A stretch of 40,035 bases of DNA from a virus. Shown in pieces: positions 5,870-35,508 of this stretch. The stretch lies in the IMG/VR virus record IMGVR_UViG_3300006947_002595, positions 1-40,035 of that record. The stretch is one strand, 5' to 3'. A model generated the notes under the pieces. The model had not been told where the DNA came from and did not search any database. It saw only the letters and a list, made by a program, of their open reading frames with translations. A program made the translations under genes and the position numbers. Positions within the stretch are counted from its first letter, which is position 1. The number at the start of each line of letters is the position of its first letter.

Positions 5870-6283
5870 ATGGCTTATTCAGACAAGGTGATGGACCATT
5901 ATGAGAACCCACGAAACGTAGGTAAATTTAATGCTGAAGAAAGTAACATTGGTACAGGTATGGTAGGAGCTCCAGCGTGTGGAGACGTAATGCGTTTACA
6001 AATCAAAGTAGATGAAAATGGTATTATTGAAGATGCTAAATTCAAAACTTATGGTTGCGGTAGTGCTATTGCTAGTAGTAGTTTATTAACTACAATGGTA
6101 AAAGGTATGACGTTAGATAAAGCAGGCTCAATAAAGAACATGGATATTGCACATGAACTTGCATTACCTCCAGTTAAGATACATTGCAGTGTACTAGCCG
6201 AAGATGCAATTAAATCTGCTATTGCAGATTATCAAGGCAAGAACCCAGTACCTGAGGGTGCTAGCTACTACGAAATTAAGTAG
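5870..6283 (+). CDS. iscU: IscU-type iron-sulfur cluster scaffold
   Basis: A 137-residue protein matching IscU across its length. The cluster ligands occur at the E. coli positions: C37 and D39 in GAPACGDV, C63 in YGCGSAIASSS, and H105-C106 in KIHCSVLAEDAI. The LPPVK motif (99-103), recognised by the HscA chaperone, is intact. IscU assembles [2Fe-2S] and [4Fe-4S] clusters from sulfur supplied by IscS and passes them to acceptors. No IscS, HscA or IscA gene is visible, so the phage protein would have to use host partners. A CGFS glutaredoxin, a usual cluster carrier, lies 1 kb downstream. A TAGGAG ribosome site precedes the ATG. Confidence 0.95.
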   Translation: MAYSDKVMDHYENPRNVGKFNAEESNIGTGMVGAPACGDVMRLQIKVDENGIIEDAKFKTYGCGSAIASSSLLTTMVKGMTLDKAGSIKNMDIAHELALPPVKIHCSVLAEDAIKSAIADYQGKNPVPEGASYYEIK

Positions 6284-18386: not shown

Positions 18387-19517
18387 ATGTTAGAAAATAT
18401 TGTAAAACTTGATACTCTGTTTAAAAGAGATACAAAAAGTAAAGTTCGCATGTGGGAAGTTGAATATGGACAAGGTCCTAGGCTACTTGCAGGAACACGT
18501 ACTATCAGTGGTTTAGTTGATGGTGCCAAAGTTACAAGCGAATGGAATATGAGTGCTCCCAAGAACGTTGGTAGAGCAAACGAAACAACCGCATTAAGCC
18601 AAGCACAAGCCGAAGCCCAATCTTTATGGGATAAACGTATTGAGAAAGAGTACTTTACAAATGTTGACAGCATTGACTCTTATGAACAATTTAAGCCAAT
18701 GCTTGCACATGATTATACAAAGCGTCCACAAGACAAAGGTTGGAGTCAGCCTAAGTTAGATGGTATTCGTTGTGTAGTTAATAGTAATGGAATGTGGACA
18801 CGTAGTGGTAAAGCTATTACAAGTTGCCCACACATTTGGGAATCTTTAAAAGGTTACATGGCAGAGCATCCAGGTCATATATTAGATGGTGAACTTTATA
18901 ACCATGAACTTAAAGCAGATTTTAATAAAATTATCTCACTTGTTCGTAAAACAAAAAGCACAGAAAAGGATATGGCTGAAGCTGAAACACTAGTGCAGTA
19001 TCATGTTTATGATATGTTTAATACAACAGCACCAGATATGAATTTTGTTAATCGTGTTAAGCAAGCATATTGGGCTAAAAACGATTATGTTCATATTGTA
19101 AAAACTGACTTTGCAAACAGCCAAGAAGAGCTTGATATATTGTACAGTGAATACACAGAGCAAGGTTACGAAGGCCAAATGGTACGTAACGACACAGCAT
19201 ATGAAAGCAAACGTAGTAAGAACTTACTGAAACGTAAAGAGTTCATTACTGAAGAATTCAAAGTTCTACAAGTACTTGAAGGCCAAGGAAATTGGAGCGG
19301 ATATGCTAAACGTTTTATACTTGAACTAGCAGACGGTAGACAGTTTGGTAGTGGAGTACGTGGACAGCAAGCACAGTTGGCAGAACTGTGGGCGGCTGGC
19401 AAAACAGCTAAAGGCATGCCCAATTGGGCCACTTGTAGATACTTTGAACTAACACCAGATGGAGTTCCACGTTTTCCAGTTATTGTGGACTACGGATACG
19501 GTGTACGTACTGATTAA
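18387..19517 (+). CDS. ATP-dependent DNA ligase
   Basis: A 376-residue ligase. After an N-terminal 90-residue module (VRMWEVEYGQGPRLLAGTR onward, resembling a WGR-type nucleic-acid binding domain) the nucleotidyltransferase core begins. Motif I is QPKLDGIR with the adenylated lysine at K123, motif III is HILDGELYNH, motif IV EGQMVR, and motif V NLLKRKEF. An OB-like domain closes the protein (LADGRQFGSGVRG). All catalytic elements are intact, so it probably seals nicks during phage replication. It is a different lineage from the gp30-like gene at 33005, whose catalytic lysine is lost. It sits alone between a dyad promoter and a terminator. Confidence 0.95.
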   Translation: MLENIVKLDTLFKRDTKSKVRMWEVEYGQGPRLLAGTRTISGLVDGAKVTSEWNMSAPKNVGRANETTALSQAQAEAQSLWDKRIEKEYFTNVDSIDSYEQFKPMLAHDYTKRPQDKGWSQPKLDGIRCVVNSNGMWTRSGKAITSCPHIWESLKGYMAEHPGHILDGELYNHELKADFNKIISLVRKTKSTEKDMAEAETLVQYHVYDMFNTTAPDMNFVNRVKQAYWAKNDYVHIVKTDFANSQEELDILYSEYTEQGYEGQMVRNDTAYESKRSKNLLKRKEFITEEFKVLQVLEGQGNWSGYAKRFILELADGRQFGSGVRGQQAQLAELWAAGKTAKGMPNWATCRYFELTPDGVPRFPVIVDYGYGVRTD

Positions 19518-22009: not shown

Positions 22010-22597
22010 ATGATAATACCAACAGTAATTGAATCAACAGGACGCGGCGAACGTGCATACGATATTTACAGTCGTTTGCTTAAAGATCGAATTGTAATGC
22101 TTAATGGCGAAGTTAACGACCATACTGCAAATTTAGTAGTTGCACAGATGTTATTTTTAGAATCACAAAATAGTAGTGAAGATATTAATTTCTATATTAA
22201 TAGCCCAGGTGGTGCAGTTACAGCAGGCCTAGGAATTTACGATACTATGCAGTTTATTAAATCTCCAGTAAGTACAATTGTTATGGGCCAAGCATGTAGC
22301 ATGGGTTCGTTCCTTGCTAACGCAGGCGAGCCAGGTAAGCGTTTAGTATTACCTAACAGTCGTACAATGATTCATCAGCCAAGCGGTGGTGCAGGTGGAC
22401 AAGCAACTGATATGCAGATTCAAGTAAATGAGATTATTAAGATAAAAGAAAGTCTTACACGCATTTATGAGAAGCATAATAGTAAGGGCAAAACATACGA
22501 AGTACTTGCAGAAGCTATGGAGCGTGATAACTTTATGTCCGCACAAGAAGCTGTAGACTTTGGTTTGGCCGATAAAGTTATAGAACGTAAAGTTTAA
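22010..22597 (+). CDS. clpP: ClpP protease subunit
   Basis: A 195-residue serine protease subunit with S97 (GQACSMGS) and H122 ([11 protein letters not shown]) at the E. coli positions and the catalytic Asp in MERDNF (D173). The oligomerisation block [16 protein letters not shown] and the N-terminal axial-loop region are present, and there is no long propeptide. ClpP forms a tetradecameric chamber that degrades proteins fed by ClpX or ClpA. ClpP-like proteases occur in phages as prohead proteases, but here a real ClpX with an IGF loop and ClpS are encoded nearby, which points to regulated proteolysis. No head genes are adjacent. A small kinase-like gene follows. Confidence 0.96.
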
Positions 22598-22610
22598 GAT
22601 AAATAATAGT

Positions 22611-23303
22611 ATGAAGATACACGACATACTAGAATCAGAACAAATAGACGAAGGTCCAAACGACCCACATATATTCAAGGCAGTATTCCTAGCCGGCGGA
22701 CCCGGCAGTGGAAAGAGCTTTGTTGCAAACGATATGTTGGGAGGTTCGGGACTAAAGACTATTAATAGCGATATGGTCTATGAATACATGGCTCAAAAGA
22801 AACAATTGGATTTAAGAGATCCTGAGCAAGTAGCTAGTCCAGATGGTCAAGAGATACGAAACCATTCAAAAACGTTAGCTGATCGAAGAAAGAACATCTA
22901 TCTAGACGGCCGCCTTGGAATTATTATAGACGGAACAGGAAAAGATGTGCAAAAGGTTGCAGACAGTATTAAGGTAATGAAAGACCTAGGATACGAGTCT
23001 ATGATGATATTTGTTAATACAAGTCTAGAAATAGCACAGGAGCGTAACGACAAAAGGCAACGTAGATTGCCAACAGAGCTCGTTGCGAATATGTGGAGTA
23101 CTGTACAAAATAATATAATGAAATTTCAACAATTATTTGGTGCGAGTGATTTCCATGTTGTTGACAACAGTGGAGGATTAGAAGATCCGTCAAGAAAAGA
23201 GAATTTTGGAAAAGTTTATAAAGAAATCCAAAAGTTTCTTAACAGACCACCAGCGTCAAGGATAGCGAAACAATGGTTAACTGACGTTAGAAGTAAACCA
23301 TAG
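22611..23303 (+). CDS. P-loop kinase-like protein (zeta-toxin / polynucleotide-kinase type)
   Basis: A 230-residue P-loop NTPase with Walker A GGPGSGKS near residues 30-37, a following INSD block (Asp acceptor or metal site), the RLGIIIDGTGKD strand and a basic lid region QERNDKRQRRLP. This order is typical of zeta-toxin and AAA_33-type kinases that phosphorylate small molecules or nucleic acid ends. The substrate is unknown. The N-terminal 20 residues (IHDILESEQIDEG) are an extension often seen in marine phage proteins. A late-promoter-like GATAAATA lies only five bases before the ATG. Confidence 0.8.
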   Translation: MKIHDILESEQIDEGPNDPHIFKAVFLAGGPGSGKSFVANDMLGGSGLKTINSDMVYEYMAQKKQLDLRDPEQVASPDGQEIRNHSKTLADRRKNIYLDGRLGIIIDGTGKDVQKVADSIKVMKDLGYESMMIFVNTSLEIAQERNDKRQRRLPTELVANMWSTVQNNIMKFQQLFGASDFHVVDNSGGLEDPSRKENFGKVYKEIQKFLNRPPASRIAKQWLTDVRSKP

Positions 23304-23325
23304 TTATAAGTTCCCTCGATACTAA

Positions 23326-23333
23326 AATAAATA
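23326..23333 (+). promoter_or_regulatory. Candidate T4-type late promoter box
   Basis: AATAAATA followed by CTAA, in the 77-base gap before the nuclease gene, 47 bases before its ATG. It resembles TATAAATACTA of T4 late promoters. Confidence 0.4.
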
Positions 23334-23380
23334 CTAAGCAGTTCAACATAGAATTGCTTATCAATATGTGAAAGAATTAT

Positions 23381-23734
23381 ATGTATACTTACAGTGCGAA
23401 ATTAATAAGAGTAATTAACGGTGACACATTGGACCTAGATATTGACTTAGGTTTCGATCTGTCTACAAAGCAACGATTAAAACTCCATGGTGTAAATGCA
23501 CCCGATTCTAGATCAATGGATATCGATATCAAACAAAAAGGTATTGATGCTAAACAAAGACTAATTGATCTATTGACTAAAGAGTTTAAAGTAACGACTA
23601 TCCTCAATAAGCGAGGAAAGTATGGAAGGATCTTAGGATTCATTTACGTAATTGATTCTAAGGGTAATGAAGTTAACGTAGGTGAAGTATTGGTCGAAGA
23701 AGGCCATGCGATACACTACAACACAGGAAAATAG
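23381..23734 (+). CDS. SNase-like nuclease, cytoplasmic
   Basis: A 117-residue protein of the thermonuclease fold without a signal peptide: KLIRVINGDTLDLDIDLGF, RLKLHGVNAPDSRS and KYGRILGFIYV. The catalytic Glu that follows the DxP motif in staphylococcal nuclease (DTPE) is Asp here (NAPDS), and the preceding Asp is Asn, so catalysis may be altered. It is probably intracellular, unlike the exported SNase at 8582. It ends one base before the membrane protein gene. Confidence 0.82.
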   Translation: MYTYSAKLIRVINGDTLDLDIDLGFDLSTKQRLKLHGVNAPDSRSMDIDIKQKGIDAKQRLIDLLTKEFKVTTILNKRGKYGRILGFIYVIDSKGNEVNVGEVLVEEGHAIHYNTGK

Positions 23735-23735
23735 T

Positions 23736-25421
23736 ATGAGGTATTTTGGTTATTGGACAATTTTAGTTGCACTATCAATAAGTGCTGTGGCGGCCTACTA
23801 TAGCATAGTTGGTCTTGTGGCTATCTTTGCCAGTGCCATTATACCGATTATTATTATGGGTACCGTATTAGAAATCGGTAAGTTAACCTCAGCAGTGTGG
23901 TTACACTTGCATTGGCGAGAAGCTCCCATGCTTATTAAGACGTATCTCACTGTAGCCGTGCTTATGCTAATGCTTATTACAAGCATGGGTATATTTGGCT
24001 TTTTATCTAAAGCACACATAGAACAAACTAGCCGGGCTACTGAGAACGTTGCTCAAATAGAACGCATTGAAGAAAGTATCGTAAGACAAAAGTTTATTAT
24101 TACTAAAGCAGATACTAGCATAGACAAACTTGAAAATACAGACAACAATAAAGACGAAGGTATTCAAGCAAAAATCAATGTAGAACAAGAAAGAATTAAT
24201 TCGGCATACGCAGGTGTGCAACCATCAATTGATGAACAGAATGCAATTATTACAGATCAAAAAAATAGCTTAGAAAAACAAACAGCACCGTTTACTAGAC
24301 AGTTAGAAGAGATTGATAATCAACTAGCGTCAATAGAAACGTATATTGCTAATGAAGATATTAAAAAATTACAAGGACTAATAGGCGCATCACAGGATGG
24401 ACGCTATGGAACTAAAACTGCTCAAGCAGTGAATGAATATAGAGCTGAAAAAGAAAAGAACAGACGCATGGTTTTATATCAGCTAAATAATATTAGAAGC
24501 CAGGAAGATACAGTTACTAAGGAAGCTAGAATAGAGATTAAAAGACTTAGAGCCTTTGCAGAACAACAAATTGCAGACTCTAACGCATTAATAACTAGAC
24601 TTAGAGCAAACTTGGGACAAGGACAGTTAGTAGATAGTACAGACCAGATTAATGCACAACGTACTATTATTACTACAGCAGAAGATGTCCTAGATACGTT
24701 ATACACCGAGAAGTTTACATTAGAGGGCGATAGCAGATTATTAGAAGCAGAAGTAGGCCCTGTAAAGTATATTGCTGAATTAATATGGGGTGCAGATCCT
24801 ACTCGAAACATGTTGGACGATGCTGTTCGATTTGTTATATTAATGTTAGTACTAGTATTTGACCCACTAGCAATTGTGCTTGTAATATCAGGCATAACAC
24901 TAGTAGAAAGGTTTCCACGTAAGAAGAAACCAAAGGTAATATATGAAGAAAAAGAACCAATTTCTGAAAACATTGAAACAGACGATAGCGTCGAAGAAAA
25001 TGTTGAAGTCATTGAAGAAACAAACGAAGATCAATCCAGTGTTAGCGTTCAAGATGAGATACTTGAAGAAGACGTAATACACACGGACGGCGAAGGCAAA
25101 GAGTACACAGTCGATGCACTTACAGGCAAGCGCCAATATCTTTTAGATGAATCACAGTATAGTTTAAACGACACAGCAAGATCAACTTTAAAAAAGGAAA
25201 AAAAAGAACTGGTAAATAAAATAGTAGCAGAGATGCGAAGCACAGGCAGTTGGCCCGGAGCAGGTTACTTATCAGATGATGGCGTAATCAAGAAAAGAAT
25301 AGAAGATATATTTGCAGATGACGCATCGTTAGAGTTGAAAGAGTTAATGGCTAAGGCAGACTCAGCAGTGTTAAATGAAGTATACAAAGAAATCATAAAA
25401 GATACCAGAGATGAAAATTGA
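23736..25421 (+). CDS. Coiled-coil membrane protein with peptidoglycan-binding-like motif
   Basis: A 561-residue protein. Three to four hydrophobic segments in residues 5-90 (ILVALSISAVAAYYSIVGLV, IIPIIIMGTVL, TVAVLMLMLITSMGIFGFL) are followed by a long coiled coil (about 95-350) and another membrane segment near 366-390 (ILMLVLVFDPLAIVLVISG). Inside the coil, residues about 208-235 read KKLQGLIGASQDGRYGTKT..., which resembles the PG_binding_1 motif of cell-wall proteins. The C-terminal 170 residues are acidic and cytoplasmic. T4-like marine phages carry related proteins of unknown role. The start is the ATG at 23736, just after the nuclease stop, because the ATG at 23682 lies inside that gene. 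Confidence 0.78.
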   Translation: MRYFGYWTILVALSISAVAAYYSIVGLVAIFASAIIPIIIMGTVLEIGKLTSAVWLHLHWREAPMLIKTYLTVAVLMLMLITSMGIFGFLSKAHIEQTSRATENVAQIERIEESIVRQKFIITKADTSIDKLENTDNNKDEGIQAKINVEQERINSAYAGVQPSIDEQNAIITDQKNSLEKQTAPFTRQLEEIDNQLASIETYIANEDIKKLQGLIGASQDGRYGTKTAQAVNEYRAEKEKNRRMVLYQLNNIRSQEDTVTKEARIEIKRLRAFAEQQIADSNALITRLRANLGQGQLVDSTDQINAQRTIITTAEDVLDTLYTEKFTLEGDSRLLEAEVGPVKYIAELIWGADPTRNMLDDAVRFVILMLVLVFDPLAIVLVISGITLVERFPRKKKPKVIYEEKEPISENIETDDSVEENVEVIEETNEDQSSVSVQDEILEEDVIHTDGEGKEYTVDALTGKRQYLLDESQYSLNDTARSTLKKEKKELVNKIVAEMRSTGSWPGAGYLSDDGVIKKRIEDIFADDASLELKELMAKADSAVLNEVYKEIIKDTRDEN

Positions 25422-25860
25422 TAACGATAGTTACACAGTAACACCCCCAGATTTAATGATGACGGAACATGGGATTGGAATTCTAATCTCCTCAACTAAT
25501 CACGAACTAGTAGATGACATTAAAGCAGTATTTGAACAATACATTGCTACAAGTGTTGTGTTTATGGTTCAAAATAATAAAACAAATGGAGGAACATTAC
25601 CTTGGATGTGGAATGTTTCTAAAACATGTGACTTCATGATAATTGATGTTGACACGTGTGCATGGGAAGATATTATGGCAGCACTTTTGAAATCAAAAGA
25701 AGAACCAAATACCGTCCTATTTTATAGTGATAAGTACAAGAGAAGGGAGACAGTTAAATTGATTAATGCAACAGGAACAAACTTAGTGGTTAGGTCAATA
25801 AAAGATATAACAGCCTATATCCAAGTACAAATGAGCACAGAGTATCTAAATGAAATCTAG
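25411..25860 (+). CDS. Hypothetical protein, 149 aa
   Basis: A compact alpha/beta protein (GIGILISSTNHELVDDIKAVFEQYI, CDFMIIDVDTCAWEDIMAALL, TVLFYSDKYKRRETVKLINAT) with a response-regulator-like or Rossmann-type alternation of strands and helices, but without clear catalytic residues. It overlaps the genes on both sides by 11 bases, so it is translationally coupled to the membrane protein and to clpX. Unknown function; a role as a ClpX adaptor is possible only by position. Confidence 0.72.
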   Translation: MKIDNDSYTVTPPDLMMTEHGIGILISSTNHELVDDIKAVFEQYIATSVVFMVQNNKTNGGTLPWMWNVSKTCDFMIIDVDTCAWEDIMAALLKSKEEPNTVLFYSDKYKRRETVKLINATGTNLVVRSIKDITAYIQVQMSTEYLNEI

Positions 25861-27076
25861 TTCTTCGTTAGTTCAGTGCAATTTTTGTAGTAAAGATACA
25901 ACACAGGTAAAGAAGCTACTAGCAGGTGAAAACCATACGCATATATGTAGTGATTGTGTTGAGCTTTGTTATGGCATAATCAAGAACGAAACTGTTAAGA
26001 TAGAAAACGCTATTCAAAAGAAAACTAAAAACGTTATACCCACTCCCAAAGGAATACACAAGCACTTAGACAAGTATGTTATTAGCCAATCACATGCTAA
26101 GAAAACATTAAGTGTTGCAATGTATAATCATTATAAAAGAATTAGTAGTAAAACAAAATCAAGGTTACAAAAAAGCAACGTGCTTATTGCAGGTCCTACT
26201 GGAACTGGCAAAACATTAATGGCACAAACACTAGCTAGGTTTTTAGATGTTCCATTTGTAATTACAGATGCTACAGTTATCACAGAAAGCGGATATGCAG
26301 GTGATGACGCAGAAGTATTAATACATAAATTATTTGCCGCAGCAGATTACGATATTGACAGATGCCAACGTGGTATTATATATGTAGATGAAATTGATAA
26401 GAAAGCCAAGCGAAATGACTATGTTAGCTTGAGTAGAGACGTTTCTGGAGAAGGAGTCCAACAGAGCCTTTTAAAGCTCATGGAAGGTACTATAGTAGCG
26501 GTTCCGAACAAACCGACACATAACCCGGAGAAGGTCGAAATCGACACCACTAACATACTATTTGTAGTAGGTGGAGCCTTCGTTGGCCTACAAGATGTTG
26601 TGCTTGAACGACTCGGTAAAGCAAAGATAGGTTTTAACGACTCTAACGATGCCGCAATTAAAGACTGGCAAAGGCACTTACAAACACGTGACTTAGTAAA
26701 ATATGGATTAATACCTGAGTTTATAGGTAGACTTCCTAGTGTTAATGTGTTAAACTTATTAAGTAAGCAAGATTTAGTAGAAATATTGACAGAACCAACA
26801 GATAGTATTATTGATCAAATAAAAGATTTATTTTTACTTGACAAAATACAAATAGAGTTTACAATAAGTGCATTAGAAGAAGTTGCAACTGTTGCTATAA
26901 ACGAAGAAATGGGTGCTAGAGGTTTACGTAAGATTTTAGACGAAGCACTTTTAGACATCCAATATGAGTTACCTGAGATGTATGAACAAGGAGTTAGAAA
27001 AATTATTATTAACGAAAATGTAATACGCAATACCGGAAAACCCATAATTATTAAAGGCACAAACACAGTTGAATAA
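25850..27076 (+). CDS. clpX: ClpX ATPase / unfoldase subunit
   Basis: A 408-residue AAA+ protein aligning with ClpX from end to end. Zinc-binding C10, C13, C33 and C36; Walker A GPTGTGKT (115-122); Walker B IIYVDE (176-181); pore-2 block SRDVSGEGVQQ; ClpP-docking tripeptide IGF (260-262) in its loop; sensor II GARGLRK. Two substrate-contact loops differ from E. coli: pore-1 GYVG is GYAG (148-151), and the RKH loop, which reads the ssrA tag C-terminus, is KPTH (221-224). ClpX unfolds tagged proteins and feeds them to ClpP, whose gene lies 3.3 kb upstream. It overlaps infC by eight bases. Confidence 0.97.
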   Translation: MKSSSSLVQCNFCSKDTTQVKKLLAGENHTHICSDCVELCYGIIKNETVKIENAIQKKTKNVIPTPKGIHKHLDKYVISQSHAKKTLSVAMYNHYKRISSKTKSRLQKSNVLIAGPTGTGKTLMAQTLARFLDVPFVITDATVITESGYAGDDAEVLIHKLFAAADYDIDRCQRGIIYVDEIDKKAKRNDYVSLSRDVSGEGVQQSLLKLMEGTIVAVPNKPTHNPEKVEIDTTNILFVVGGAFVGLQDVVLERLGKAKIGFNDSNDAAIKDWQRHLQTRDLVKYGLIPEFIGRLPSVNVLNLLSKQDLVEILTEPTDSIIDQIKDLFLLDKIQIEFTISALEEVATVAINEEMGARGLRKILDEALLDIQYELPEMYEQGVRKIIINENVIRNTGKPIIIKGTNTVE

Positions 27077-27590
27077 AAGCAATTTTAAAAAGAGAGACAT
27101 CGGTCCTAAAGTAGTAGCAAATAACAGGATTAGGTGCAAGACAGTAAGAGTTTCCTTTCCAGATGGTGATAGTCAAATACTATCGATTGAGGACGCACAG
27201 AGGAGTGCATTAGAACTAGACTTAGATTTAGTGTTGATCACTGAAACAGCAGATCCACCAGTTTGTAAAATAACTGATCTAGCTAAGTTTATATACGCCT
27301 CTAAGCAAAAAGACAAGTTGGCTAAACGAAAGCAACGTGAAAGCGTTGTTGAGACAAAGGAAATACGTTTGGGAATTAACATCGATATAGGTGACATAAC
27401 TACCAAGGCTAAGCAAGCACGTAAATTCTTAGACAAAAACAACAAAGTTACGGTTACCATTATTCTTAAAGGTAGAGAGCGGGGGAAAAGCGATAGAGCT
27501 AAAGAACTGCTAAATACATTTGCTGACACTCTAGGTGTTGAATATGAAAATATAAGCATTCAGAATAATAGAGTGACTGGAAAGATATAA
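27069..27590 (+). CDS. infC: Translation initiation factor IF-3
   Basis: A 173-residue IF-3 with both domains: the N-domain (NNRIRCKTVRVSFPDGDSQILSIEDAQRSA, then DPPVCKITDLAKFIY), a Lys-rich linker (QKDKLAKRKQRES), and the C-domain beginning TKEIRLGINIDIGD with KARKFL-type and VTVTIILKGRERG blocks. It lacks the last few residues seen in many host IF-3s. IF-3 keeps ribosomal subunits apart and rejects wrong starts. No ATG is available near the start: translation most likely begins at the TTG inside the clpX stop region. Host infC genes also use poor start codons for self-control. The bS21 gene follows after six bases. Confidence 0.95.
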   Translation: MNKSNFKKRDIGPKVVANNRIRCKTVRVSFPDGDSQILSIEDAQRSALELDLDLVLITETADPPVCKITDLAKFIYASKQKDKLAKRKQRESVVETKEIRLGINIDIGDITTKAKQARKFLDKNNKVTVTIILKGRERGKSDRAKELLNTFADTLGVEYENISIQNNRVTGKI

Positions 27591-27596
27591 CAAAAT

Positions 27597-27833
27597 ATGT
27601 CAAAAAATAATCATAAAGATCAACGAGGCGGCGGTGGCCTAACAGTTGAAGTTAGAAACAATAATGTAGAACAAGCACTACGTAAGCTAAAGAAAATGAT
27701 AGCCAAAGACGGTATCATGCAAACAATACGTGACCGTAGTCATTTTGTAAGTAATACTGAGAAACGATTAAAAGCAAATGCCGCGGCAGCTGCCAGACAT
27801 CGTAGACGTATTAAGGAAAACAAGTACGAATAA
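27597..27833 (+). CDS. rpsU: Ribosomal protein bS21
   Basis: A 78-residue basic protein with the bS21 signature VEVRNNNVEQALRKLKKM, the RDRSHFVSNTEKRLK middle part and an Arg/Ala-rich end (AAAARHRRRIKEN). bS21 sits on the small subunit near the mRNA exit and affects initiation and Shine-Dalgarno recognition. Marine phages, including pelagiphages, are known to carry it. With the adjacent infC it makes a two-gene initiation module that could bias host ribosomes towards phage mRNAs. The N-terminal 14 residues (MSKNNHKDQRGGGG) are an unusual glycine-rich extension. Confidence 0.95.
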   Translation: MSKNNHKDQRGGGGLTVEVRNNNVEQALRKLKKMIAKDGIMQTIRDRSHFVSNTEKRLKANAAAAARHRRRIKENKYE

Positions 27834-27948
27834 TTTAACAGAATTTGTCCATTTTTATGGGTAAATAATAATGCGTGTTAGAACTGATTTCTGCATGCAG
27901 GAATGCCGAAAGGGTTCCAAAAATCTTGCTTAACAAAGGAGAACAATT
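27834..27948 (+). promoter_or_regulatory. Structured 5' leader of hsp20, candidate ROSE-like RNA thermometer
   Basis: This 115-base leader contains a hairpin GGAATGCC-GAAA-GGGTTCC with a GNRA loop (about 27900-27918), then TTGCT (27926-27930) six bases before AGGAG (27937-27941), the ribosome site for hsp20. In ROSE thermometers of alphaproteobacteria and enterobacteria a U(U/C)GCU segment masks AGGA at low temperature, upstream of small heat-shock genes. The same arrangement here is suggestive. CTGCATGCAG is an extra palindrome. No promoter hexamers are obvious. Confidence 0.45.
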
Positions 27949-28374
27949 ATGACAAGACTTACAACACTAAACCTACCAGACTTCTATAAAGCCACTATTG
28001 GTTTTGATAGAATGTTCGATGAGATGCAAAATGCATTTAATCCAACAACTACAGGCGGGTATCCACCCTACAATATCGTTAAAGTAAACGAAACAAGCTA
28101 TGCAATTAGTTTAGCAGTAGCTGGTTTTAATAAGAACGATATTAGCGTGGAGCAAGACGGTAACATGCTTACTATCAAAGCTGAAGATACTTCAGAAGAA
28201 GATGTTAAGGAATATCTACACAAGGGTATTGCAACTAGAAACTTTACAAGAGAATTTAGTTTAGCAGATTATGTAGATGTAACTGGAGCGAAACAAAATG
28301 ACGGAATTTTAGAAGTCACTTTGCAACAAAACATTCCAGATAACAAGAAACCACGTAATATTAAAATTGGATAA
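27949..28374 (+). CDS. Small heat-shock protein, Hsp20 family (IbpA-like)
   Basis: A 141-residue chaperone. After an N-terminal arm (DFYKATIGFDRMFDEMQNAF, similar to the IbpA start) comes the alpha-crystallin domain (PPYNIVKVNETSYAISLAVAGF, DISVEQDGNMLTIKAED, IATRNFTREFSLADYVDVTGAKQNDGILEVTL) and a short tail. The usual I-x-I tail motif appears as NIKIG. Hsp20 proteins hold unfolded proteins for refolding or degradation. T4-like cyanophages also encode Hsp20. In this window it lies between bS21 and ClpS, within the protein quality-control group. Confidence 0.95.
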   Translation: MTRLTTLNLPDFYKATIGFDRMFDEMQNAFNPTTTGGYPPYNIVKVNETSYAISLAVAGFNKNDISVEQDGNMLTIKAEDTSEEDVKEYLHKGIATRNFTREFSLADYVDVTGAKQNDGILEVTLQQNIPDNKKPRNIKIG

Positions 28375-28385
28375 CAGGTAAAACA

Positions 28386-28688
28386 ATGGCTCAAGCATCA
28401 CACGAAGACATAGCAGAAATGACAAGGTTAAAATCACCACCTAAATTTAACGTGATTCTAATGAATGATGAAGCTACGCCTCAAGAGTTCGTAGTTAATG
28501 TTTTAAGATCAATTTTTAATAGAACATCAGACGAAGCAGAGGCAGTGATGCTTGAAGTCCATAACAAGGGCAGAGGCATAGCTGGTACATACAGTTACGA
28601 AGTTGCTGAACAAAAATGCGTTGAAACGATTACTGACGCAAGGCGTAATAGCTACCCACTAGACGTCACATTAGAAAAAACAGAATAA
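28386..28688 (+). CDS. clpS: ClpS, N-end rule adaptor
   Basis: A 100-residue adaptor with all ClpS blocks: KFNVILMNDEATPQEFVVNVL, IFNRTSDEAEAVMLEVHNKGRGIAG and TYSYEVAEQKCVETI. The residues that line the N-degron pocket (ND in MNDE, M and H in VMLEVH) are present. ClpS normally delivers proteins with destabilising N-terminal residues to ClpA for ClpP. No ClpA gene is visible, so it would act with host ClpA or with the phage enzyme in a new way. It starts 11 bases after hsp20. Confidence 0.95.
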   Translation: MAQASHEDIAEMTRLKSPPKFNVILMNDEATPQEFVVNVLRSIFNRTSDEAEAVMLEVHNKGRGIAGTYSYEVAEQKCVETITDARRNSYPLDVTLEKTE

Positions 28689-30011: not shown

Positions 30012-30798
30012 ATTTATAGCCGCAATGGACCACAGTGGTGGAAGCACAGGCGGAGTACTAGAACGTTACGAACAAGATTATACAGAAGATAATAAAATGG
30101 ACCTTGTACATCAAATGCGTATGCGTATGGTTAATAGTCCAGACTTTAACAGTAATAATATTTGGGCCTCAATACTTTATAAAGATTCAGTTGAACGAGG
30201 TTTATCTATGATCCTACGTGCAAAAGGCATTGAACCATATCTTAAAATTGATAGTGGGTGTGAAGAAGATGGAACACTCAAACACTTTGATTTAGAAGAG
30301 ATGTGTAAGTATGCACTTGAAATGCAATGTAGTGGTACTAAGATGCGTAGCATTATTAAAAGCGAAGAGATGATTGATGCAGTACTTAAACAACAATTTG
30401 GTATGGCTGCATATATTAGTAACAAAGGCCTTATGCCAATTGTAGAACCAGAAATTCCAATTGATCATCCAATGAAGCGTTCGTTAGAGATTATGCTTTT
30501 TGAACAGTTAAACAATCATCTACAAACATTAGATGGTAAGTGTATTCTAAAACTTACACTACCTGATATTAAAGAACTCTATAAACCATTGACAGCACAT
30601 GAAAGTTGTAGTAGTATTGTAGCATTAAGTGGTGGATACACTACAGAAGAAGCATGCAAAAGACTAGCAAATAATCCTTCAATGGGTGCTAGCTTTAGTA
30701 GAGCATTAAGCGAGGGATTGTTCTATGGACAGACTGAGCCGGTATTTGACACACGAATAAGTGCAAATATTGATAACATTAAAAGGAGTTGTGAATGA
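30004..30798 (+). CDS. Class I fructose-bisphosphate aldolase
   Basis: A 264-residue protein matching bacterial class I FBP aldolases of the staphylococcal type: [17 protein letters not shown] at the start, [17 protein letters not shown], the Schiff-base lysine region [24 protein letters not shown] and [11 protein letters not shown]. It cleaves or forms fructose-1,6-bisphosphate by a Schiff base without metal. Aldolase in a phage could divert carbon to triose phosphates or feed the neighbouring nucleotidyltransferase pathway (inference). The ATG at 30004 is chosen because the conserved sequence begins there; an ATG at 29950 lies within the HAD gene. It overlaps guaC by ATGA. Confidence 0.93.
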
Positions 30799-31943
30799 GA
30801 ATCGAAACAGAACACAAGCTAGATTATAGCGATGTATTAATTAGACCAAAGCGTAGTACGTTAGGGTCGAGAAAAGACGTTGATTTACAACGTGGATTTA
30901 CATTTAGAAACTATTTGGGAGCAAGGCCTTTAAATGAACCAGAAGACTACAGCGGTATTCCTATTATGGCTTCTAACATGGATGGAGTTGGTACATTTGA
31001 AATGGCAGACACACTTGCTAAACAAAGTATCTTCACTTGCTTAGTTAAAACATACAGCGTAGAAGAACTTGTTGAATTCTTCAATACGGATAATGAGTCT
31101 CGCACAGATAATGTTGCTATTAGTATTGGCATCATGGAAAAGGATCAACAGAAATTTAGTGACGTATATGAACAAGTTGGTGCCCGTATCAAGTATGTTT
31201 GTATTGATGTAGCAAATGGATATAGTGAACGATTTAGTAACTTTGTTAGAAAGTTTAGAAAACAATATCCATACGTAGTAATTATTGCTGGTAATGTAGT
31301 AACAGGCGAAATGACAGAGGAGTTAATTCTTAATGGAGCAGACATTGTTAAAGTTGGAATCGGACCAGGTTCCGTGTGTACAACAAGAATCCAAACAGGT
31401 GTCGGATACCCACAGCTATCTGCAGTTATTGAATGTGCAGATGCGGCACATGGACTTGGTGGACATATTATCGCTGATGGGGGTTGCAATTGTCCTGGTG
31501 ACGTGGCTAAGGCATTCGCTGGCGGTGCAGATTTTGTAATGCTTGGCGGAATGCTAGCAGGACATGATGAAGGCGGTGGAAAAACTATTCTTAAACATTA
31601 TGAGACAAATGAACTTGTATATGAAATAGGTAGTCACTTGGATAAGCATACAAAGAAAATTGAAACAAAAGAGTTTGTAGCATTCTACGGAATGAGTTCA
31701 AATGCGGCAAACACAAAGCACTTTGGAGGATTGAAAGATTATAGATCAAGCGAAGGACGTGAAGTACTTGTTCCTTATCGTGGAACAGTAGAAAATACTA
31801 TACAAAATATATTAGGCGGAATACGTAGTACATGCACATACGCAGGTGCAAACCGTCTTAAATACCTAAATAAATGCACTACATTTATTATGGCTAACAA
31901 ACAGTACAACGCAGTATATGAAGCGACTACAACGAAGATTTAG
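30795..31943 (+). CDS. guaC: GMP reductase
   Basis: A 382-residue member of the IMPDH/GMPR family. The start [19 protein letters not shown] is GuaC-like, and the catalytic loop [20 protein letters not shown] contains the active-site Cys. [35 protein letters not shown] forms the phosphate-binding part. No CBS domain pair is present, which supports GMP reductase over IMP dehydrogenase. It deaminates GMP to IMP with NADPH, letting guanine from degraded host RNA flow to adenine nucleotides, useful for an AT-rich phage genome. It closes the metabolic operon. Confidence 0.93.
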
Positions 31944-32530: not shown

Positions 32531-32745
32531 CAACACTAACAATTTATCAAACAACATGCAACGTATGCGAATACATAGCAGACAAGATTTCAAACGCTTG
32601 TAATAATATGATTAAAAGTTTTGAAGTAGTTGGAACAGCGAGAGCCGCTTCACAACTAGCAAGCATGGGTTATTACAAAGAAGCAGAAGCTCTTATGTTA
32701 CAACTCAAAGACATAAGAAAAGAATTAGAGGCCATTAAAAAATGA
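32527..32745 (+). CDS. Small protein of the tandem MTT group, 72 aa (second)
   Basis: A 72-residue helical protein. The N-terminus (MTTLTIYQTTCNVCEYIADKISN) is similar to that of the next gene (MTTLAETYCAFCDRIALTVNN), including the Cys-x-x-Cys spacing. The C-terminal half (AASQLASMGYYKEAEALMLQLKDI) could be a diverged DUF1127-type helix-turn. Overlaps both neighbours by four bases. Confidence 0.7.
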   Translation: MTTLTIYQTTCNVCEYIADKISNACNNMIKSFEVVGTARAASQLASMGYYKEAEALMLQLKDIRKELEAIKK

Positions 32746-32957
32746 CAACACTAGCAGAAACTTACTGTGCATTTTGCGATAGAATTGCACTTACCGTTAA
32801 CAACTTAATTAGTAAATGGGAAAATAGAGAAAGACCGTATAACAGAGATACATACAATGCTTTATCGAAGTTGTCAGATCATGACTTAAAGGATATTGGG
32901 TTATGCCGAGGCGATATCATGTTTATCGCTAAGGGTGGATCGATTTACCGTAAATAA
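32742..32957 (+). CDS. DUF1127 family protein
   Basis: A 71-residue protein whose C-terminus carries the DUF1127 signature: DTYNALSKLSDHDLKDIGLCRGDI. DUF1127 proteins are short, arginine-rich and common in alphaproteobacteria, where some have been linked to RNA turnover and phosphate or stress responses. In a phage this suggests a host-derived regulator. The CFxC-type N-terminal Cys pair (CAFC) is shared with the preceding gene. It is the last gene of the three-gene operon. Confidence 0.85.
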   Translation: MTTLAETYCAFCDRIALTVNNLISKWENRERPYNRDTYNALSKLSDHDLKDIGLCRGDIMFIAKGGSIYRK

Positions 32958-32962
32958 AAAAC

Positions 32963-33014
32963 CCTTGCTCAGATAACACTAGTTTTAATCGGCTAAATAG
33001 TTGTATGAGCAAGG
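32963..33014 (+). repeat. Inverted repeat spanning the start codon of the ligase-like gene
   Basis: CCTTGCTCA (32963-32971) is the exact complement of TGAGCAAGG (33006-33014), which overlaps the ATG at 33005. The loop is 34 bases. If transcribed from upstream, the pairing would hide the start codon. A GCTAAATA late-like box lies in the loop, so late transcripts from it would lack the left arm. Confidence 0.4.
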
Positions 33015-33976
33015 TACATCTTTTATCACAAATAATAGCTAATTTACAGCTACCTACAACTCAAGACGAGAAGATTGAGTTACTAACCACCTATAATAAA
33101 GAAATCATACTGAAACGCATTATAAGTATTGCGTATAATCCATGGATTGATCTTGGTATGACTAAGTTTAAGCCTAGACATACTGGTAAACAGTTTGGAA
33201 TGGGTATAGCTAGATTCTTACATATTCTAGATGATATTATAGATGAAAAATATTCACATAAAGAAAAAGAGTTTTCATGCAATATGGCACTTATGCATAT
33301 TGAACAAAATGATGCTAAACTCTTTACTAGCTTAATTACACAGTCATTAGATCTATGCTTAGATATTGAATCAATCAATACAGTTTGGCCTGGATTAATA
33401 ATGAACTATCCAATAAGCACTCCAGTTACTACAGACTATAAAGAATTTAAATTGTTTCCAGCATCAGTACAACCACTTAGCAGAGGCTTACGAGTCAATG
33501 TAATGGTTTACAATGATGTTGTATTCTATAAAGACAAGCTAGGTAATAATATACTAGGTTGGGAAATATATGACAAACAATTTATTAACCTAGCACAAGG
33601 TAACAATACAGTATTTGATGGGCATGCAGTAGTTGCAGAAGGCGTTAACGTTGTTGAAGTTGCAAACGATAAGGTACTAGAAGCAGAAGCAGAGAACATT
33701 AGATTCATGTTATGGGACGTTATACGTTATGATGGGTTTGTTAAAGGTGAAGACACACGCATGGGTTATAACTGGCGTTACAACGGTATTGAACATATGC
33801 AAATATTAGCCATAGACAAGAATCCTGCTCCTTGTTATGATTTAGTTCGTGCTGAATTAGTAGGTAGTCAAGAGCAATTAGCACTTACTGTGTCTAAATT
33901 CAGTGGATGTGTTATTAAGAGCTTAGATGGTATCTGGAAACACGGTCCAGATGAAACACAAGTTATTTGCGTCTAA
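33005..33976 (+). CDS. Degenerate T4 gp30-like DNA ligase, catalytic lysine lost (pseudo-enzyme)
   Basis: A 323-residue protein collinear with the first two-thirds of T4 DNA ligase: ILKRIISIAYNP near the start, HTGKQFGMG, SINTVWPGLI, then the motif I region FPASVQPLSRGLR. In T4 this reads LKADGAR with adenylated K159; here the Lys is Leu (L158) and the Asp is Arg (R160). Motif III DGE is DGH (205-207), the motif IIIa strand RFMLWDV is kept, motif IV EG is SG, and the protein stops at SLDGIWKHG, before motif V and the OB domain. It cannot be a normal ligase. The frame is intact, so a structural or DNA-binding role is likely. It overlaps the lipase gene tail to tail. Confidence 0.85.
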   Translation: MSKVHLLSQIIANLQLPTTQDEKIELLTTYNKEIILKRIISIAYNPWIDLGMTKFKPRHTGKQFGMGIARFLHILDDIIDEKYSHKEKEFSCNMALMHIEQNDAKLFTSLITQSLDLCLDIESINTVWPGLIMNYPISTPVTTDYKEFKLFPASVQPLSRGLRVNVMVYNDVVFYKDKLGNNILGWEIYDKQFINLAQGNNTVFDGHAVVAEGVNVVEVANDKVLEAEAENIRFMLWDVIRYDGFVKGEDTRMGYNWRYNGIEHMQILAIDKNPAPCYDLVRAELVGSQEQLALTVSKFSGCVIKSLDGIWKHGPDETQVICV

Positions 33977-34730
33977 GTATTTTCTTAAGGTAGTTAGCAC
34001 TCAAGTGATCATAAAAATTATCAAAGAACTGAAACTTACTCCAAGCCTTTAATCTTCCTTTTATTCTATCTCTCATTCTATGCAAAAAAGTTGTGTTAGT
34101 CTGTATATGATCAGTGTATGATATATAGAACAAATCACCTATGTGTTCATAGTAACCACCTGGTGGAACTTGTGGCACAATATCGTTGTTATTCACAAAA
34201 CGATAAGCATCTATTCCATCAAATTGCTTAGTCCATGCAAGTGTTCCTACTTTAGGGCATCCATATGTATAAAGAGATATATCCTTATTGTCTACATGAA
34301 TACGTGTAGCGGCTATAGTTGCCATTGCGGCACCTAAGCTATGTCCACATATTACAAACTTGCGTGATTTTATACTTTTACCTAGCCACTTAGTTAGTGC
34401 TGGCCAAAGTTTATCAAGTTCAGTTTTAAATCCACCATGTACATGTCCTACAGTTTCAGCACTACTTGGCCATGCTTTAACGTCTGCAAGTATGTCTCCG
34501 AATTGTGTTGGTTCAGTTCCTCTAAATGCAATTAATGTATACTTGGGAAATTTAATTCCGTAACATTGTGCAGAACCTTTAGAAAAGAACTTTATAGTGG
34601 AATATTTTATTTTATGTTTTATTAGATACGCTTCCATTGTATCAATATCGTTATATGCTTCTTCTACCATTTCCGCTGTTAATTCAACAACGGCCCAATC
34701 TATCTTATTTTTTGTTGTTTGATTTGGCAA
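33963..34730 (-). CDS. Lipase class 3 (alpha/beta hydrolase)
   Basis: A 255-residue hydrolase with the lipase-3 signs: FRGTEPTQFGDILADVKAW, HGGF, the nucleophile elbow CGHSLGAAMA (S131), YGCPKVG, then NNNDIVPQVPPG (catalytic Asp) and YDHLSANY (catalytic His). These enzymes release fatty acids from glycerolipids. No signal peptide is present, so it would act inside the cell or at lysis. It is the second gene of a minus-strand pair and overlaps the MscS-like gene by 26 bases; both could weaken the envelope late in infection (inference). Confidence 0.9.
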   Translation of the reverse strand: MPNQTTKNKIDWAVVELTAEMVEEAYNDIDTMEAYLIKHKIKYSTIKFFSKGSAQCYGIKFPKYTLIAFRGTEPTQFGDILADVKAWPSSAETVGHVHGGFKTELDKLWPALTKWLGKSIKSRKFVICGHSLGAAMATIAATRIHVDNKDISLYTYGCPKVGTLAWTKQFDGIDAYRFVNNNDIVPQVPPGGYYEHIGDLFYISYTDHIQTNTTFLHRMRDRIKGRLKAWSKFQFFDNFYDHLSANYLKKILRRK

Positions 34731-35050: not shown

Positions 35051-35097
35051 CGTAATTGAAATTAACATTTGTGTTAATTAAATATTTGATAAATAGG

Positions 35098-35126
35098 TTG
35101 ACAGAAGACACTACATAGTGTATAAA
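35098..35126 (+). promoter_or_regulatory. Sigma70-type promoter of the tmRNA gene
   Basis: TTGACA, a 17-base spacer (GAAGACACTACATAGTG) and TATAAA. A start site near 35133 is expected. It lacks the AAGA-TCTT dyad. A GATAAATA box (35088-35095) directly precedes the -35 element, so early and late transcription may both occur. Confidence 0.75.
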
Positions 35127-35132
35127 TATAAC

Positions 35133-35465
35133 TTGTAACGTTGAAACTTAATTGAACGCTAAACTGGACCTGGGGGCAGTACCCAGCAGCTCCACCATAA
35201 ACACACCGCCGTGTGGACCGAAAGACGGATTCTATAGGCGTTTCGGCATATGTCGCAGTAGAATATTACGGTGTGTTTTTGATGGGGCTGATATAGGATC
35301 GACAGGTAGACTAGATAAGTGGAGTTATCCCGATGTAAGCTGGGTTAACGCGAACAAACTTTATAATTGCAAACGCAAATTATGAGCCAGAAATGGCAAT
35401 AGCAGCCTAAATTAGGTATGTAGGGGTTTTGGTAACTTGGACCTGGCAACAGAATCAAGTTGCAA
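35133..35465 (+). ncRNA. ssrA: tmRNA, circularly permuted two-piece type
   Basis: The acceptor piece comes first: T-arm CTGGG-GGCAGTA-CCCAG (35170-35186), then CAGCTCC and encoded ACCA (35187-35197). An intervening hairpin (AAACACACCG/CGGTGTGTTT) leads to the second piece, which starts GGGGCTG (35284-35290) and pairs all seven bases with CAGCTCC, then GATATAGGATCGACAGG as in other tmRNAs. The resume frame GCA...TAA (35370-35411) encodes ANANYEPEMAIAA. The 3' end is not exact; the AACTTG/CAAGTT hairpin ends near 35461. Permuted ssrA genes are typical of alphaproteobacteria. It rescues stalled ribosomes and tags products for ClpXP; clpX and clpP are also in this window. Confidence 0.93.
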
Positions 35466-35508
35466 ACTTCATGGACATAAGTTCATGATTATCTTAAACA
35501 GGAATAAT

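Follow-up and report, generated by a model that had tools for sequence, protein, structure and literature searches.

A conserved pseudoenzyme descended from the T4-type gp30 DNA ligase, encoded together with a second, active-type ligase in T4-like phages

The DNA ligase of phage T4, gp30, is built of an alpha-helical N-terminal DNA-binding domain (DBD), a nucleotidyltransferase (NTase) domain, and a C-terminal OB domain. Its catalytic signature comprises motif I (KxDGxR, with the lysine that is adenylated), motif III (DGE), motif IV (EGxxxK), and motif V (KxK). The gp30 loop that follows motif III reportedly binds the sliding clamp in T4. The sliding clamp, for which nicks can serve as loading sites, takes part in T4 late transcription, and gp30 enforces the coupling of this transcription to replication (PMC2988020). 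The ligase DBD is also known as a protein of its own: Iyer et al. (2021, PMC7824862) described a standalone form from jumbo phages and proposed that it recruits a host ligase. Cyanophages are described as lacking gp30 (PMC2984593).

The window analysed here is the whole 40,035-nucleotide stretch of the IMG/VR virus record IMGVR_UViG_3300006947_002595. It contains a gene which a preliminary description had read as a gp30-like ligase deprived of its catalytic residues. The features of this pseudo-ligase gene are as follows.

33005..33976, plus strand: pseudo-ligase coding sequence, 323 aa, gp30-type DBD and dead NTase without an OB domain (profile matches, alignment)
33005..33409, plus strand: alpha-helical DBD, residues ~1-135 (5wfy and 6dt1 matches; gp30 and standalone DBDs by hhalign)
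33410..33973, plus strand: NTase-fold domain without catalytic residues, residues ~136-323 (VIA-align to 6imk)
33476..33493, plus strand: degenerate motif I, LSRGLR, residues 158-163 (alignment to gp30)
33617..33625, plus strand: degenerate motif III, DGH, residues 205-207 (alignment to gp30)
33731..33838, plus strand: newly invariant block, residues 243-278, DGF..G.D.R.GYNWR.NG.EHM..L.......PCY (column invariance)
33902..33919, plus strand: degenerate motif IV, SGCVIK, with Lys305 kept, residues 300-305 (alignment)
33956..33973, plus strand: last part of the NTase domain and of the protein, with the motif V lysine pair replaced (alignment to gp30)

The frame runs uninterrupted from the ATG at 33005 to the stop at 33976, as had been claimed for all 323 codons. 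Homology by descent to gp30 is indicated by significant profile matches that span both the DBD and the NTase domain. The family phrog_114, "ATP-dependent DNA ligase", matches residues 2-314 (E=1.3e-20), and an hhalign comparison of the pseudo-ligases with six phage gp30s gives a probability of 99.8% (E=1.6e-28, 315 columns). The T4 ligase structure 6dt1 is found with the single sequence (E=1.4e-6) and with the family profile (E=4.9e-15), and the latter also retrieves the 136-aa ligase chain 5wfy (E=6.5e-7). The helical N-terminal DBD of active T4-type ligases is thus present, and the likeness to gp30 noticed earlier in the sequence holds in profile searches. In Pfam no match was obtained for the window protein, and DNA_ligase_A_N weakly matches two members of the family (0.011). 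PADLOC returned no defence-family match.

An AlphaFold model of moderate confidence (pLDDT 66, pTM 0.56) agrees with this assignment. Its top Foldseek match is again 6dt1 (E=5.7e-13; VIA Z 15.7), and its NTase half superposes on the solved ligase 6imk with a VIA-align Z of 14.8 (3.0 Å, 160 residues). Over the whole chain the rmsd to 6dt1 is 15.7 Å, which presumably reflects the orientation of the domains.

In the alignment to gp30 the residues required for catalysis are replaced. The adenylated lysine is Leu158, the motif I aspartate is Arg160, DGE has become DGH207, and motif IV has lost its glutamate (EG to SG), all of which the preliminary description had recognised. The two lysine positions of motif V are occupied by Ile321 and Val323. 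The same description had the protein stop before motif V; the truncation and the loss of the lysines stand, but the final strand of the NTase domain can still be aligned, which puts the end of the protein at the NTase/OB boundary. The OB domain is indeed lost, since the protein terminates where this domain would begin. A convergent lipase gene overlaps the stop codon and leaves no evident space for it.

Two scans of viral contigs yielded about 40 contigs with relatives of the pseudo-ligase, and a further scan, run with a divergent member, added L198. The 24 distinct coding sequences analysed diverge down to ~40% identity, the most divergent being L072 (41% identical to the window protein) and L198. 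The lysine position carries Ile, Leu, Val, or Cys, and Lys in none of the 24. Motif III reads DGH, or DGC or DGI in the divergent pair, and the motif III and IV glutamates are absent. In L198 motif I reads CLDGKR, with the lysine alone lost, which fits a history in which this residue disappeared first and the rest of the motif may have changed later. In the tree the pseudo-ligases form one side of a branch supported 100/100 against the gp30s, at a point where long branches meet. Sequencing error or recent decay can be dismissed, because the loss is common to all relatives and the frame is kept open in every member. Among bacterial and archaeal genome contigs only pattern matches were found and no relative was confirmed, and a megablast search of a phage database with the first 24 kb of the window gave no match.

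Selection was estimated by pairwise dN/dS with our own Nei-Gojobori script, on pairs with dS of 0.05-1.5. The median is 0.157 for the DBD and 0.174 for the NTase domain. Since the values are similar, selection holds the dead NTase as tightly as the DBD, and both halves appear to be needed. The columns K23, N125, W128, and L131, invariant in the DBD of gp30, are still invariant in the pseudo-ligases; so, among the pseudo-ligases, are Arg163, Trp237, Asp238, and Lys305. The strongest conservation is found in a new block outside the catalytic motifs. In residues 241-278, 20 of 38 columns are invariant in 23 pseudo-ligases versus 2 of 38 in six gp30s, a contrast somewhat inflated by the greater divergence of the gp30 set. 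Over the whole protein the pseudo-ligases have 75 invariant columns and the gp30s 40, which makes the gain a local one. With its fold kept, its catalytic residues lost, and both domains under purifying selection, the protein qualifies as a pseudoenzyme, with a gp30 ligase of the T4 type as its ancestor. The earlier suggestion that the pseudo-ligase is conserved for something other than ligation is well supported by the single clade of 24 distinct sequences, by dN/dS values of ~0.17, and by the new invariant block.

A separate complete ligase had also been claimed at 18387, and this gene is real.

18387..19517, plus strand: complete active-type ATP-dependent DNA ligase, 376 aa, with an N-terminal domain of another type, NTase, and OB (motifs, predicted structure)

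All ligase motifs are present in this protein, and an alignment of 31 members shows no variation in the catalytic ones. The structure predicted for it (pLDDT 89.7) has AsfvLIG as the best match (E=6.7e-26, 420 alignment columns). The first 60 residues are predicted to be strand-rich, unlike the helical DBD of gp30. On the predicted fold, which is closest to AsfvLIG, it belongs to another lineage than gp30. The companion ligase occurs in all 14 contigs that reach far enough, namely the window and 13 of 13 relatives (two copies being partial at a contig end). The four pseudo-ligase contigs without it begin 1.5-8.7 kb before the pseudo-ligase, and the ligase lies at a distance of ~11-15 kb. In many other phage records, some of which are fragments, a ligase of the same type was found and neither a pseudo-ligase nor a standalone DBD was detected, so dependence can be one-way at most.

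The pseudo-ligase profile also picks up a phiM12 protein of 168 aa (E=3e-9), a member of phrog_461 / DUF6433. Standalone DBD relatives of this kind are present in 380 phage records, for the most part of cyanophages, where the DBD is carried as a hypothetical protein. By hhalign they match the gp30 DBD (E=3.3e-7) and the pseudo-ligase DBD (E=9e-9); phrog_114 weakly picks up several of them, and phrog_461 matches the pseudo-ligase DBD (E=0.0026). A PDB search with the standalone-DBD profile gave nothing at E<=1, so the link between this DBD and the ligases rests on hhalign, phrog_114, and phrog_461. In phiM12, Cr30, OC, and the IMG/VR phage G022 the standalone DBD is found with an active-type ligase of the companion's kind. 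In the cyanophages Syn19, P-RSM4, and S-RIM8 phrog_114 has no ligase match, and in S-PM2 it finds the standalone DBD only, which agrees with the published description of cyanomyoviruses as phages that lack gp30 (PMC2984593). As the DBD occurs with an active ligase or without any, it seems to be worth keeping without catalysis. It directly adjoins RNase H in phiM12, Cr30, OC, and S-PM2, and the ORF beside it in G022 is likely an RNase H as well, by reading of the ORF. Beside the pseudo-ligase no RNase H was found, apart from one weak and distant match in a single contig (G010). In the Ochrobactrum phage OC the 144-aa standalone DBD, p091 (L176 3219-3653; MT028491.1 74218-74652), is annotated as a DNA ligase and called so in the genome paper; the real ligase of this phage is p206.

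The region upstream of the pseudo-ligase contains elements that bear on its expression.

32980-32988, plus strand: TAGTTTTAA box upstream of the pseudo-ligase (sequence)
32992..32999, plus strand: octamer GCTAAATA, resembling a T4-type late promoter and spanning -13 to -6 relative to the ATG (same place in 19/19 main-clade sequences)

The late promoter of T4-like cyanophages is NATAAATA (PMC2984593). An octamer of the form N[ACT]TAAATA stands exactly at -13 to -6 in all 19 main-clade sequences, which are related and not independent; the heptamer [ACT]TAAATA has a frequency of ~6e-4 per position. The element is of the NATAAATA type and at a fixed distance, as in T4-type late genes, with C replacing the first A in some main-clade sequences. 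No Shine-Dalgarno sequence is evident at the window pseudo-ligase, and most main-clade sequences have none. The spacing of T4 late promoters would put the transcription start at or near the ATG, so the transcript is possibly leaderless. In L072 and L198 the late motif lies farther upstream, with a leader and GAGG. The companion ligase has GGAGG upstream and no late motif. The phages belong to a T4-like group: gp20, a gp21-type protease, and gp23 occur together in one contig (G002), and the portal gene of the group (Portal_T4, E=7e-108) has ATAAATA, GCATAAATA, upstream. By its match to this consensus the pseudo-ligase is apparently switched on with the late genes. A TAAATA ending 5 nt before the ATG, with no evident Shine-Dalgarno, also precedes the genes at 22611 (plus strand) and 35037 (minus strand), whose transcripts are possibly leaderless late ones too.

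The gene has a conserved neighbourhood.

30795..31943, plus strand: GMP reductase / IMPDH-family gene, syntenic upstream neighbour
32742..32957, plus strand: DUF1127 small protein, syntenic upstream neighbour (PF06568, E=2e-11; in L072, E=4e-12)
33963..34730, minus strand: class 3 lipase, convergent, sharing 14 bp with the 3' end of the pseudo-ligase gene (PF01764, E=3e-24)

The divergent L072 and L198 keep the order GMP reductase, DUF1127-type small protein, pseudo-ligase, and convergent lipase. In two contigs compared as possible empty sites, G016 and G023, the gene order around GMP reductase differs. Other genes of the window were recorded. A permuted tmRNA of alphaproteobacterial type lies at 35094-35501 (RF04321, 105.9 bits; RF01849, 98.7 bits), with the tag ANYEPEMAIAA. 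It is found downstream of the pseudo-ligase in 10 of 10 main-clade loci scanned, with varying tags, and not in L072; its type hints at an alphaproteobacterial host. Near it, at 22010-28688 of the window, are genes for ClpP (22010), a ClpX-like ATPase (25850), IF-3 (27069), Hsp20 (27949), and ClpS (28386), a phage-borne set for trans-translation and proteolysis. A NifU/IscU-like iron-sulphur scaffold gene is located at 5870-6283 (PF01592, E=1e-53).

Taken together, these observations suggest a dead ligase turned into a DNA-break-binding or regulatory protein. The reading we consider somewhat probable is that of a late, non-catalytic binder of nicks or ends derived from gp30, with sealing left to the other ligase and a partner at residues 243-278. 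Ligation would have been taken over by the co-encoded ligase, freeing gp30 from catalysis. The DBD and the inert NTase would bind nicks or ends of phage DNA, neither sealing nor encircling them. A late promoter of its own would drive synthesis of the protein late in infection, and its newly conserved 243-278 region would contact a partner, either protein or DNA. Strand breaks may in this way be protected, marked, or handed over during late DNA metabolism. Of the roles suggested earlier (nick or end binding, scaffold, decoy), binding to nicks or ends is favoured because the DBD has been kept and because related phages encode the same DBD by itself. Against this reading count the moderate confidence of the model, a late promoter recognised by its match to a consensus, and the chance that residues 241-278 form a surface for proteins only. 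The protein is also not generally required, since many phages have a relative of the active ligase and neither a pseudo-ligase nor a standalone DBD was detected in them.

Of the other explanations, a doubtful one, though the best of them, makes the pseudo-ligase an accessory subunit that delivers or stimulates the 18387 ligase or a host ligase at nicks, the two proteins together rebuilding a DBD-NTase-OB clamp. The co-occurrence of both genes in 14 of 14 contigs, the presence of such a ligase alongside the standalone DBDs of phiM12, Cr30, OC, and G022, and the recruitment of a host ligase proposed for jumbo phages (PMC7824862) speak in its favour. Against this, the 18387 ligase has an N-terminal domain of its own and matches AsfvLIG over its length, so no domain is missing. 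The two genes are ~11-15 kb apart and carry different signals, a late motif versus a Shine-Dalgarno sequence. Moreover, the active ligase has relatives in phages where neither a pseudo-ligase nor a DBD was detected.

It is improbable that the fold no longer binds DNA and serves purely as a protein scaffold or regulator, a platform for replisome, late transcription, or packaging partners. The most conserved segment is the new block, which lies outside the catalytic motifs; the loop that follows motif III in gp30 is shortened or absent, so the partners differ from those of the T4 ligase. Such a scaffold is at odds with a DBD as constrained as the NTase and with the gp30-invariant DBD columns that stay invariant.

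A role as a late regulator that sits on nicks in the phage DNA, or prevents their closure, is similarly improbable. If this were true, a late-made, non-sealing nick binder would control clamp loading, late transcription, or the protection of nicks before packaging. A literature search yielded no report of a dead ligase used as a late nick regulator.

Very little probability is given to an enzyme of altered chemistry, or a nucleotide sensor, that would use the remaining pocket (Arg163, Trp237, Lys305): these residues and Asp238 are invariant, but the nucleophilic lysine, the glutamates of motifs III and IV, and the motif V lysines are gone, and no other catalytic signature was seen. Least credible of all is a decaying gp30 relic not yet lost, which would account for the missing catalytic residues and OB domain beside another ligase but not for an open frame in all members, dN/dS of ~0.17 in both domains, divergence to ~40% identity, or synteny conserved in the divergent clade.

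The literature searched yielded no paper on phage pseudo-ligases and none on a form combining the DBD with a dead NTase. A conserved dead ligase beside a co-encoded active one is a clean natural experiment on the DNA-binding half alone. T4-like phages hold three states of one gene, namely full gp30, DBD with dead NTase, and DBD only, and the role of a ligase DBD without the ligase becomes directly testable, in cyanophages as well.

With T4 gp30 (6dt1; phrog_114) the pseudo-ligase shares the DBD and NTase folds, the order of the blocks, the motif IIIa Trp-Asp, the Gly and Arg of motif I, and the Lys of motif IV. It differs from gp30 in lacking the Lys and Asp of motif I, the glutamates of motifs III and IV, the motif V lysine pair, and the OB domain, and in having a short loop after motif III and the new invariant block 243-278. 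AsfvLIG and the kDNA-ligase-like phage ligases are nearest to the co-encoded active-type ligase, not to the pseudo-ligase. With the standalone DBD (DUF6433 / PF20025, phrog_461, cyanophage T4-GC 313) it has in common a gp30-type DBD that persists with no catalytic function, beside an active ligase or instead of one. Proteins of the DBD-only family measure ~140-170 aa; the pseudo-ligase, of 323 aa, does not adjoin RNase H and adds a complete dead NTase of ~190 aa, which places it outside that family.
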